The notes under the pieces: model-generated
Seen by the model: the letters and a program-made list of their open reading frames with translations, nothing else
The model's database searches: none
Told to the model about the DNA's origin: nothing
Translations under genes and position numbers: made by a program
Assembly (NCBI RefSeq): GCF_024508295.1
Contig: NZ_CP101990.1
Span: forward strand, 1,426,001-1,490,000
Length of the DNA: 64,000 nucleotides
Direction: 5' to 3'
DNA from: Aeromicrobium duanguangcaii
Lineage (GTDB): Bacteria; Actinomycetota; Actinomycetes; Propionibacteriales; Nocardioidaceae
In this document: positions 50,020-60,317 of the stretch, piece after piece
How the letters are laid out: every line of letters starts with the position of its first letter
How positions within the stretch are numbered: position 1 is the stretch's first letter

Positions 50020-50079
50020 GTGCTCAGGCTAGCCAGACGCGCGGGGGAGTGCGATTTCCGTTGGGAAGGATCTGGCTGC

Positions 50080-50085
50080 TAGCAT
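50080..50085 (+). promoter_or_regulatory. -10 of the infC operon
   Basis: TGCTAGCAT is an extended -10 with TAGCAT at 50080-50085. Initiation near 50092 gives a leader of about 170 nt that contains the attenuator. Confidence 0.4.
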
Positions 50086-50195
50086 GGTTGATCGAAGTGG
50101 AGGTCACTCCCACCTGCCGGGTTTCTGATCCGGGGGTCACCCATTGCGGGTCGTCTCTGGCGATCGCGCGGTGTGCGGCACCGTAGGGTGCGTGT

Positions 50196-50229
50196 GGTGA
50201 CTTTCGCTTCGACGGAGGTCACCTTTTTT
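50196..50229 (+). terminator. Attenuator-like intrinsic terminator in infC leader
   Basis: GGTGAC (50196-50201) pairs with GTCACC (50218-50223), followed immediately by six T (50224-50229). It lies 31 nt upstream of the infC start and within the leader, so transcription of infC-rpmI-rplT is probably attenuated. The upstream leader is C/G-rich with several further stems. Confidence 0.75.
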
Positions 50230-50260
50230 GTGTCCTCCACCACCGATCTCAGGAGGATCC

Positions 50261-57108: not shown

Positions 57109-58542
57109 ATGACCGACCACGAGAGCGTTCGGACCGAGCATGACCTGCTGGGGGAGCGCGACGTACCGGCGGACGTCTACTGGGGAGTGCACACCCTGCG
57201 CGCCCTGGAGAACTTTCCGATCACCGGTGTGCCCATTGCCATCAGCCCGTACCTGCCGCAGGCCCTGGCCGCGGTGAAGGAGGCGGCAGCCGAGGCGAAC
57301 CACGACCTCGGCCTGCTGGACGACGACCGCCACGCGGCGATCGTGCAGGCCTGCCGCGAGATCCGGGCCGGCGAGCTGCACGACCAGTTCGTCGTCGACG
57401 TCATCCAGGGTGGCGCCGGCACGTCGACGAACATGAACGCCAACGAGGTCATCGCCAACCGCGCGCTGGAGATCCTCGGGCATCCCTTCGGCGACTACGA
57501 CCGCCTGCATCCGAACGAGCAGGTGAACCTGAGCCAGTCGACCAACGACGTCTACCCCACGGCCGTGAAGATCGCGGTCATCAACGCGACGTACGACCTG
57601 ATCGACTCGATGGGCCGGCTGGAGGACGCTTTCGCCGAGAAGGCGGTCGAGTTCCACGAGGTCCTCAAGATGGGCCGCACCCAGCTGCAGGACGCCGTGC
57701 CGATGACGCTCGGCCAGGAGTTCGGCACGTACGCGCTGATGATCGGTGAGGACCGTGCGCGCCTGCGTGAGGCCGTCCTGCTGCTGCACGAGATCAACCT
57801 CGGCGCCACCGCGATCGGCACCCAGCTCAACGCGCCACAGGGGTACGTCCCGCGCGCCCGCGAGCACCTGTCGCGCATCACCGGACTGCCGCTGCGCACA
57901 GCCGTGGACCTCATCGAGGCGACGCAGGACTGCGGCTCGTTCGTCCAGATGTCCGGCGTGCTCAAGCGCGTCGCGGTGAAGCTCTCGAAGATCTGCAACG
58001 ACCTGCGCCTGCTGTCGTCCGGACCGCGCGCCGGACTCGGCGAGATCAACCTGCCTGCCCGCCAGGCCGGGTCCAGCATCATGCCGGGCAAGGTCAACCC
58101 GGTCATCCCCGAGGTCGTCAACCAGGTGGCCTTCCAGATCATCGGCCACGACGTCACGGTCTCGATGGCCGCCGAGGCCGGGCAGCTGCAGCTCAACGCC
58201 TTCGAGCCGGTGATCTGCTACTCCCTGTCCGCCGGTCTCTACCGTCTGCGCATGGCGATCGAGTCGCTGACCGAGCACTGCGTCCGGGGGATCACCGCCA
58301 ACCGTGAGCACCTCGCCGCCGAGGTCGCCAACTCCGTCGGACTCGTGACCGCACTGAACCCGTACCTGGGCTACCAGACCGCCACCGAGCTGGCCAAGGA
58401 GGCGCTGCTCACGGGGCGCGGTGTCGCCGAGCTCGTGCTGGAGAAGGGCCTGCTGCCCGCGGACGAGCTCGAGCGGATCCTACGGCCCGAGACGCTGGCC
58501 CATCTGGGGCCGAAGCCGGCGGACCGCTCCGGCGGCGTCTGA
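57109..58542 (+). CDS. aspA: Aspartate ammonia-lyase
   Basis: A 477-residue aspartase/fumarase-superfamily enzyme: DLLGERDVPADVYWGVHTLR, GTSTNMNANEVIANRALE, HPNEQVNLSQSTNDVYPTA and the GSSIMPGKVNPVIPE signature. The substrate-binding MGRTQLQDAVPMTLGQEF supports aspartase rather than fumarase. It deaminates aspartate to fumarate. It is the gene immediately upstream of the Ile-leader/cimA unit but has its own region. Confidence 0.92.
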   Translation: MTDHESVRTEHDLLGERDVPADVYWGVHTLRALENFPITGVPIAISPYLPQALAAVKEAAAEANHDLGLLDDDRHAAIVQACREIRAGELHDQFVVDVIQGGAGTSTNMNANEVIANRALEILGHPFGDYDRLHPNEQVNLSQSTNDVYPTAVKIAVINATYDLIDSMGRLEDAFAEKAVEFHEVLKMGRTQLQDAVPMTLGQEFGTYALMIGEDRARLREAVLLLHEINLGATAIGTQLNAPQGYVPRAREHLSRITGLPLRTAVDLIEATQDCGSFVQMSGVLKRVAVKLSKICNDLRLLSSGPRAGLGEINLPARQAGSSIMPGKVNPVIPEVVNQVAFQIIGHDVTVSMAAEAGQLQLNAFEPVICYSLSAGLYRLRMAIESLTEHCVRGITANREHLAAEVANSVGLVTALNPYLGYQTATELAKEALLTGRGVAELVLEKGLLPADELERILRPETLAHLGPKPADRSGGV

Positions 58543-58555
58543 GGTCTGGTCGGGT

Positions 58556-58583
58556 GGCCACAGCGTGCGTGTACGCTGTGGCC
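58556..58583. promoter_or_regulatory. Palindrome covering the cimA leader promoter
   Basis: GGCCACAGCG (58556-58565) and CGCTGTGGCC (58574-58583) are exact complements around TGCGTGTA. The right arm contains part of the -10 TACGCT (58572-58577), and the last base abuts the leader ATG. If transcription starts at that ATG, the palindrome is DNA only, so it is an operator candidate. Confidence 0.6.
58572..58577 (+). promoter_or_regulatory. -10 box of the cimA leader transcript
   Basis: TACGCT is followed by 6 nt (GTGGCC) and the leader-peptide ATG at 58584, so the leader ORF is probably translated from the very first nucleotide. Confidence 0.5.
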
Positions 58584-58622
58584 ATGAACACGTCGGTGAT
58601 CATCATTGGAAAGCGCGTCTGA
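58584..58622 (+). CDS. Ile-rich leader peptide of cimA attenuator
   Basis: A 12-codon ORF encoding MNTSVIIIGKRV, with Val then three consecutive Ile codons (ATC ATC ATT, 58599-58607), ending in TGA. The stop and last codons lie in the left arm of the following hairpin. It precedes citramalate synthase, an isoleucine-pathway enzyme, so isoleucine starvation would stall the ribosome on the Ile run. It is too short for gene finders. Confidence 0.85.
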   Translation: MNTSVIIIGKRV

Positions 58623-58641
58623 AGCATCACCTCAGACGCGC
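58613..58641 (+). promoter_or_regulatory. First hairpin of the cimA attenuator
   Basis: GCGCGTCTGA (58613-58622) pairs perfectly with TCAGACGCGC (58632-58641) around a 9-nt loop. Loop bases ATCACC (58626-58631) are complementary to GGTGAT (58595-58600) in the leader ORF, offering an alternative pairing. A ribosome stalled at Ile would mask the left arm. Confidence 0.7.
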
Positions 58642-58642
58642 C

Positions 58643-58669
58643 GCCTCCCGTACCCGGGGGGCTTTTTTT
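58643..58669 (+). terminator. Intrinsic terminator of the cimA attenuator
   Basis: GCCTCCCG (58643-58650) pairs with CGGGGGGC (58655-58662) around TACC, followed by seven T (58663-58669). It starts one base after the first hairpin and lies 41 nt before the cimA ATG. Confidence 0.85.
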
Positions 58670-58709
58670 GTGAACGGCCAGTGTGTGGAACGAACAGAGC
58701 AGGACGACC

Positions 58710-60317
58710 ATGAGCACGAGCTTCGGCAAGCACGACCCGGCGGACTTCCACGTCTACGACACGACGCTGCGTGACGGCGCCCAGCAGGAGGGCCTGAACC
58801 TGTCGATTCAAGACAAGATGGCCATCTCCCAGCACCTCGACGCGCTGGGTGTGGGTTACATCGAGGGCGGCTGGCCCGGCTCGAACCCCAAGGACACCGA
58901 GTTCTTCGCCCTCGCGGCCAAGGAGCTCGACCTGAAGCACGCGACCCTGGCCGCGTTCGGCTCGACCCGGCGCGCCGGCGCGGTGGCCGCCGACGATCCG
59001 CAGGTCGCCGCGCTGCGTGACTCGGGCGCCTCGGTCGTGACCGTCGTGGCCAAGAGCCACGACCAGCATGTGCTCCGCGCCCTGCGCACCACGCTGGACG
59101 AGAACCTCGCAATGGTCCGCGACACCGTGACGCACCTGCGCGGGGAGGGCCAGCGGGTCTTCCTGGACTGCGAGCACTTCTTCGACGGCTACCGCGAGAA
59201 CCGCGACTACGCCCTCGAGGTCGTGCGCGTCGCGACCGAGGCCGGCGCCGAGGTCGCGGTGCTCTGCGACACGAACGGCGGGATGCTGCCGCACTGGGTG
59301 AACGAGATCGTCGCCGACGTCCTGTCCTCGACGGGCGCCCGCCTGGGCATCCACGCCCACAACGACACCGGGTGCGCCGTGGCGAACTCGATCGCCGCCG
59401 TCCAGGCGGGCGCGACCCACGTGCAGGGTTGCGTCAACGGCTACGGCGAACGCACCGGCAACGCCGACCTCGTCACCTGTGTCGCCAACCTGGAGTTCAA
59501 GCTCGGGATGAGCATCATGCCCGACGGCGTGCTGGCCGATGCCACGCGCATCTCGCACGCGATCAGCGAGATCACGAACTACCCGCCGGTGGCCCGCCAG
59601 CCGTACACGGGCGTGTCGGCGTTCGCGCACAAGGCCGGGCTGCACGCCAGTGCGATCCGCGTCGATCCGGACCTGTACCAGCACATGGATCCGGCGCTGG
59701 TCGGCAATGACATGCGGCTTCTCGTCTCGGAGATGGCCGGTCGCGCGACGATCGAGCTCAAGGGCCGTGAGCTCGGCTTCGACCTGTCGGGCGACAACGA
59801 GCTGCTGACCCGGATCACCGACCAGGTCAAGAAGATGGAGCAGGACGGCTACACGTTCGAGGCGGCCGACGCCTCGTTCGAGCTGCTGCTGACCGAGGCG
59901 GTCACGGGCGTGCGCCCGGCCTACTTCGACGTCGAGTCCTGGCGCGTGATCGCCGGCTCGGCGGGTGACGGTGGCGCCGAGGCGATCGTCAAGGTCGTCG
60001 CGGGTGGTCGCCGGACCGCCGTGGTGGGGGAGGGCAACGGCCCGGTCAACGCCCTCGACCACGCGCTGCGCCAGGCGATCGAGAGGATCTACCCGGATGT
60101 CGCCCAGTTCCACCTGATCGACTTCCGCGTCCGGATCCTCGACCAGGGGCACGGCACGGACGCCGTGACGCGCGTGCTGATCGAGACCACGGACGGCAAG
60201 AGCTCGTGGGTCACGGTCGGCGTGGGCCCGAACATGATCGAGGCCTCCTTCGAGGCGCTCGTGGACGCGCTGACCTACGGCCTGCGCCTGCACGGAGTGG
60301 ACGCGTCACCGAGCTAG
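58710..60317 (+). CDS. cimA: Citramalate synthase
   Basis: A 535-residue HMGL-like enzyme: HVYDTTLRDGAQQEGLNLSI, GVGYIEGGWPGSNPKD, LGIHAHNDTGCAVANS and VQGCVNGYGERTGNADL form the catalytic TIM barrel; the C-terminal LeuA-type regulatory domain (from about residue 400) includes VNALDHALRQAI. It condenses pyruvate and acetyl-CoA to citramalate, a threonine-independent isoleucine route. Family features (WPGSNPKD rather than leuA motifs) favour CimA over 2-isopropylmalate synthase. ATG 58710 is preceded by AGGACGACC, a weak site. Expression is predicted to be Ile-attenuated. Confidence 0.93.
   Translation: MSTSFGKHDPADFHVYDTTLRDGAQQEGLNLSIQDKMAISQHLDALGVGYIEGGWPGSNPKDTEFFALAAKELDLKHATLAAFGSTRRAGAVAADDPQVAALRDSGASVVTVVAKSHDQHVLRALRTTLDENLAMVRDTVTHLRGEGQRVFLDCEHFFDGYRENRDYALEVVRVATEAGAEVAVLCDTNGGMLPHWVNEIVADVLSSTGARLGIHAHNDTGCAVANSIAAVQAGATHVQGCVNGYGERTGNADLVTCVANLEFKLGMSIMPDGVLADATRISHAISEITNYPPVARQPYTGVSAFAHKAGLHASAIRVDPDLYQHMDPALVGNDMRLLVSEMAGRATIELKGRELGFDLSGDNELLTRITDQVKKMEQDGYTFEAADASFELLLTEAVTGVRPAYFDVESWRVIAGSAGDGGAEAIVKVVAGGRRTAVVGEGNGPVNALDHALRQAIERIYPDVAQFHLIDFRVRILDQGHGTDAVTRVLIETTDGKSSWVTVGVGPNMIEASFEALVDALTYGLRLHGVDASPS

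Follow-up and report, generated by a model that had tools for sequence, protein, structure and literature searches.

The window, the whole stretch of 64,000 nucleotides that was analysed, belongs to a genome of 3.13 Mb and carries the citramalate synthase gene cimA, whose start is the ATG at 58710. Citramalate synthase opens the threonine-independent route to isoleucine. An earlier note, made from the letters of the window, had named the gene as cimA and had described in front of it an isoleucine attenuator consisting of a leaderless ORF with three consecutive Ile codons, a perfect 10-bp hairpin and an 8-bp terminator stem with seven U. The gene assignment was confirmed by the TIGR00977 score, and the ORF and both stems were present as described (Table 1).

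Table 1. Features of the cimA leader region (positions within the window).
Feature	Position	Strand	Evidence
-10-like element TACGCT	58572-58577	+	6 nt before leader ATG; hexamer spacing kept in other leaders
Leader ORF MNTSVIIIGKRV, then stop (predicted leaderless)	58584-58622	+	sequence inspection; conserved leaders; codon swap versus ilvB leaders
Three consecutive Ile codons ATC ATC ATT (putative regulatory codons)	58599-58607	+	sequence, register, masked folding
Hairpin A, 10-bp stem, holds leader stop codon	58613-58641	+	folding, covariation, ribosome-mask folding
Intrinsic terminator, 8-bp stem, 4-nt loop, T7	58643-58669	+	terminator scan, covariation
cimA, citramalate synthase, 535 aa, predicted controlled gene	58710-60317	+	TIGR00977 638.8 bits, cut-off 450

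After the ATG at 58584, the leader reads AAC ACG TCG GTG ATC ATC ATT GGA AAG CGC GTC and closes with TGA (58620-58622). The arms of hairpin A, GCGCGTCTGA (58613-58622) and TCAGACGCGC (58632-58641), match at 10 of 10 pairs, while those of the terminator, GCCTCCCG (58643-58650) and CGGGGGGC (58655-58662), form 8 pairs followed by T7 at 58663-58669, 47 nt before cimA. The first Ile codon starts 14 nt 5' of the base of hairpin A. The hairpin had been placed behind the ORF, but the stop codon makes up the last three bases of its 5' arm and the leader ORF therefore overlaps it. The leaderless placement itself held up as a conserved feature predicted from spacing. TACGCT is a hexamer of the TAnnnT type and, given its distance to the ATG, the predicted transcript start coincides with this ATG or directly adjoins it. 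Such a -10-like hexamer was present 6-7 nt 5' of the leader start in 110 of the 121 leaders scored at cimA loci. The promoter and terminator scan of the leader region gave no strong sigma-70 consensus promoter. A 12-bp perfect inverted repeat (TGGCCACAGCGT/ACGCTGTGGCCA, 58555-58566/58573-58584) covers the leader's -10 up to the start codon and is possibly an operator or due to chance. It is near-perfect in the relative L003, and it was set aside as an operator since it is diverged in L005 and not evident in L004. The -10 of other Aeromicrobium leaders often lies itself within a palindrome, CAGTCTAGACTG.

The combination of a short ORF bearing three Ile codons in a row with a terminator is not a product of chance. 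When 58541-58710 was Markov-shuffled 20,000 times, such a run in an ORF of 5-25 codons arose in 3 cases. Folding of 58584-58670 gave an MFE of -39.2 kcal/mol (z = -4.8), which was equalled by none of 200 shuffles. The terminator on the + strand was recovered by the region scan and is one of only two terminators of the hairpin-plus-T5 type found in the window on either strand. The other one, with T6 at 50224 (50060-50230), lies directly 5' of an infC-like (IF3) gene as a possible leader or attenuator, and its region has no Rfam match. The sole match to Rfam at gathering level in the window is an FMN riboswitch (RF00050, 41828-41956, 95.6 bits). Neither the cimA leader nor nine relatives of it matched any Rfam family at this level, T-box and metabolite riboswitches included, and a known riboswitch or T-box was rejected on this ground.

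Conservation was studied at 130 cimA loci (80 named loci among the sources). They comprise the one in the window and some from near-identical strains, and they are related, so that the counts are not independent. The gene was found in 35 of the 36 genomes searched of the same genus and in most genomes searched of the order. Conservation of leader and terminator in front of cimA had been set beforehand as a test that might refute the attenuator; the claim survived it, as 126 of 130 loci, far beyond the genus, have in front of cimA a terminator together with a short ORF that contains one or more Ile codons. Adjacent Ile codons occur in 120 of the 130, and the leaders are spread over Aeromicrobium, Nocardioides, Streptomyces, Kitasatospora, Thermobifida and others. 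Their length and sequence vary, as can be seen from MQSISIIIDRRAGH and VTITAIIIA in Aeromicrobium, MTTSVIIIR in Nocardioides, VLSFAMIIGSRRAGPQ in Streptomyces and MPPQAIIIVRRAG in Thermobifida. The element is absent from four loci, namely L113-L115 (genomes G005, G019 and G029) and that of Nocardioides sp. Root240 (L039), in which a start codon of cimA is preceded at 7-8 nt by a -10-like hexamer. The CimA protein of L113-L115 would start with V(T/I)S, which resembles the leaders of sister genomes and would suggest loss of the attenuator with fusion of its promoter to cimA. All four may be natural constitutive variants of cimA.

The covariation analysis proposed earlier was positive for both stems, with a score of 0.359 compared to 0.163 for shuffled and at most 0.092 for slid controls. 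Hairpin A showed 46 double-change cells compared to 15.2 ± 3.0 after shuffling (0/500), e.g. the compensatory change GCGTTATTGC/GCAATAGCGC in L009. Over both stems jointly, 96.5% of the cells are paired, a figure that is inflated more than the double changes by the fact that the tested pairs were picked by eye from the same sequences.

The codons of the leader were compared to those in front of ilvB. Among 25 paired genomes, the cimA leaders contain 86 Ile, 5 Leu and 15 Val codons and the ilvB leaders 9, 55 and 52, respectively; codon identity thus follows the downstream gene. This agrees with the earlier view that the Ile codons match the pathway, Ile standing before cimA and Leu/Val before ilvB in the same genomes, and it is this swap that speaks most strongly for the codons, beyond the RNA alone, as the sensor. 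The Ile positions alternate between ATC and ATT among loci, a synonymous variation that gives at most indirect support for translation of the leader, and the leaders strongly favour the rare codon ATT. It accounts for 29 of 118 Ile codons in Aeromicrobium leaders compared to 11 of 546 in the cimA genes, and for 104 of 119 compared to 4 of 1094 in the Streptomyces group. Hairpin A has its base 5 nt after the last Ile codon in each of the 34 Aeromicrobium and 12 Nocardioides leaders, a register that is constant despite leader peptides of 8-23 codons. This distance amounts to 6 nt in the 12 leaders of families f3/f4 and usually to 8 nt in the Streptomyces group. At cimA loci, the hairpin base typically lies 11-14 nt from the nucleotide at which the first Ile codon begins.

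A covariance model (R1) was built on the cimA leaders and searched in 396 genomes, of which 72, spread over the phylum, gave matches. From the 29 matching loci that were fetched (L138-L166), 28 contained cimA or ilvB according to tblastn and the remaining one (L166) was truncated by the contig end. Outside the genus, the matches were Ile leaders before cimA and Val/Leu leaders before ilvB. At two loci from other classes (L157 and L158), the Val/Leu leader precedes an extra gene with an isochorismatase-family-like start (LLIVDMQND), and ilvB lies about 600-700 nt further on. The second match in the genome of the window (E = 0.05) was its ilvB leader, MHSLLLVLR followed by a stop (G000:C1, ~2069300-2069376; L132, L167). 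This leader has GTA and CTT codons, which parallel ATT in the cimA leader, and GTA is nearly invariant in the ilvB leaders of Aeromicrobium.

With a probability of roughly 0.8, judged from sequence comparison and folding, the element attenuates transcription of cimA in response to Ile by means of a translating ribosome, as a sister to the Leu/Val leader that this genome has before ilvB. 70S ribosomes would load at the 5' end of the RNA. When Ile-tRNA is scarce, the ribosome would wait at the first Ile codon, where its front would not quite reach hairpin A. The hairpin could then form and oppose the terminator, so that termination would drop and cimA would be made. A ribosome at the stop codon would occlude hairpin A. 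Masked folding, under the assumption that the ribosome covers about 12 nt past the first base of the A-site codon, gave a median MFE of the upstream RNA in Aeromicrobium of about -19 kcal/mol with the ribosome at the first Ile codon compared to -0.3 kcal/mol at the stop codon, and the same trend outside this genus. This agrees with the scheme reported for ilvB1 of M. tuberculosis, in which the antiterminator can form when the ribosome stalls and is proposed to be masked by a ribosome that has reached the stop codon (PMC13236596).

The least certain step is how hairpin A would oppose the adjoining terminator. Both structures do not compete for bases, and the predicted terminator probability was 0.95-1.00 with the ribosome at Ile, at the stop codon or absent; ribosome position was therefore discarded as a thermodynamic switch of the terminator. 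A mutually exclusive antiterminator was not found, and three candidate pairings failed their tests. The attenuator may be a classical one with three strands, whose antiterminator takes terminator bases in an unrecognised form, e.g. a pseudoknot or a lineage-specific pairing. This variant is doubtful, though the ilvB antiterminators of C. glutamicum and C. ulcerans overlap the terminator only slightly (PMC11857589, PMC10272879). Pairing of the hairpin A loop with the terminator 3' arm was no better than for shuffled loops (mean of -4.9 compared to -5.5 kcal/mol). Lengthening hairpin A into the 5' arm of the terminator (AGG:CCT), which looked attractive in several Aeromicrobium and Streptomyces folds, did no better than with shuffled flanks. 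The antiterminator suggested in the earlier note, GGTGAT with ATCACC, had to be abandoned. Its 3' partner is lost in L003 (CACCATC) and L004 (CTTCATCC), and the pairing would involve neither terminator arm. Just as tentatively, the leaders of cimA and ilvB in several actinobacterial classes may share an attenuator of two hairpins without base-pair exclusion, in which the ribosome-gated hairpin would oppose the abutting terminator by its position alone, sterically or kinetically at the RNA exit. For C. glutamicum ilvBNC, an adjacent hairpin that has only three bases in common with the terminator was reported to be sufficient (PMC11857589), which makes a positional or kinetic effect plausible but unproven.

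An explanation in which leader and terminator regulate cimA without stalling at Ile codons, through leader translation as such or a general starvation signal, is improbable. It would be in line with the missing antiterminator and with S. coelicolor ilvB, for which replacement of the candidate regulatory codons was reported to have no effect (PMC1262725). However, it predicts neither codons that track the downstream gene nor the constant hairpin register nor the rare ATT, and codon mutants of the M. tuberculosis ilvB1 leader (LVVI to AAAA) lose induction (PMC13236596). That the terminator merely ends the aspA-like gene, next to a coincidental Ile ORF, can hardly be upheld. This gene has the same orientation and stops at 58542, about 40 nt ahead of the leader, but only L003-L005, the nearest relatives of the window, show the aspA end upstream, whereas 126 of 130 loci retain the element; the Ile run arose by chance in only 3 of 20,000 shuffles.

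The cimA leader can be considered real and conserved, on the grounds of the comparisons above, and is present at nearly every cimA locus examined, Streptomyces included. The leader type is known for branched-chain genes of Actinobacteria; cimA as its target seems, from the papers searched, to be undescribed. Leaders with terminators in front of ilvB were already reported, and a survey from 2005 reported that other pathways lack conserved upstream structures (PMC1262725). RNA-seq of S. lividans yielded eight leaders, none of them for cimA (PMC8079986). The papers searched contained neither a published cimA leader or attenuator nor any regulation of actinobacterial cimA. The pairs of cimA (Ile) and ilvB (Leu/Val) leaders constitute a codon-swap series made by nature. 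As no antiterminator is visible, a long-standing doubt on actinobacterial branched-chain leaders becomes a precise and testable question.

Compared to the enterobacterial trp, his and ilv attenuators, the cimA leader likewise encodes codons for the product of the pathway and has a terminator before the first gene. It differs in being predicted leaderless, in Ile codons that lie 5-8 nt from a hairpin with the stop codon inside or at its base, and in that no mutually exclusive antiterminator was found, in whose place a kinetic or tertiary alternative may act; the end-product codons, another hallmark of a classical ribosome-mediated attenuator, are present. The LEU element or leuA leader of Actinobacteria also precedes a gene of the same synthase family, LeuA (PMC1262725), but has Leu codons and a pseudoknot, and in S. 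lividans it lacks a typical terminator (PMC8079986). The ilvB-II motif is similar in having a uORF with I/L/V codons and two stems, the second being the terminator; unlike the cimA element, it was reported for ilvB of Corynebacterium, and its antiterminator pairs the right shoulder of the terminator with the P1 loop (PMC10272879), a pairing which is unsupported in the cimA leader.

The closest resemblance was to the actinobacterial ilvB and ilvBNC leaders, which also combine a short ORF near the RNA 5' end, branched-chain codons, a hairpin and an intrinsic terminator. The ilvB leader of Streptomyces lividans is leaderless and encodes IlvL with the sequence MRTRILVLGKRVG (PMC8079986), whose GKRV end is common to the cimA leader. 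IlvL of C. glutamicum is MTIIRLVVVTARRLP, and its ORF begins one nucleotide from the start site. The LVVI leader of M. tuberculosis ilvB1 belongs to the same group. The cimA element is distinguished from the ilvB leaders by the gene it is expected to control, its Ile codons and adjoining hairpins without a detectable antiterminator; still, the model built on cimA leaders recovers them. Like the leaderless branched-chain leaders of Actinobacteria, it has a start codon right after the -10 (predicted leaderless), a run of branched-chain codons shortly before the stop codon, and a hairpin followed by a terminator.
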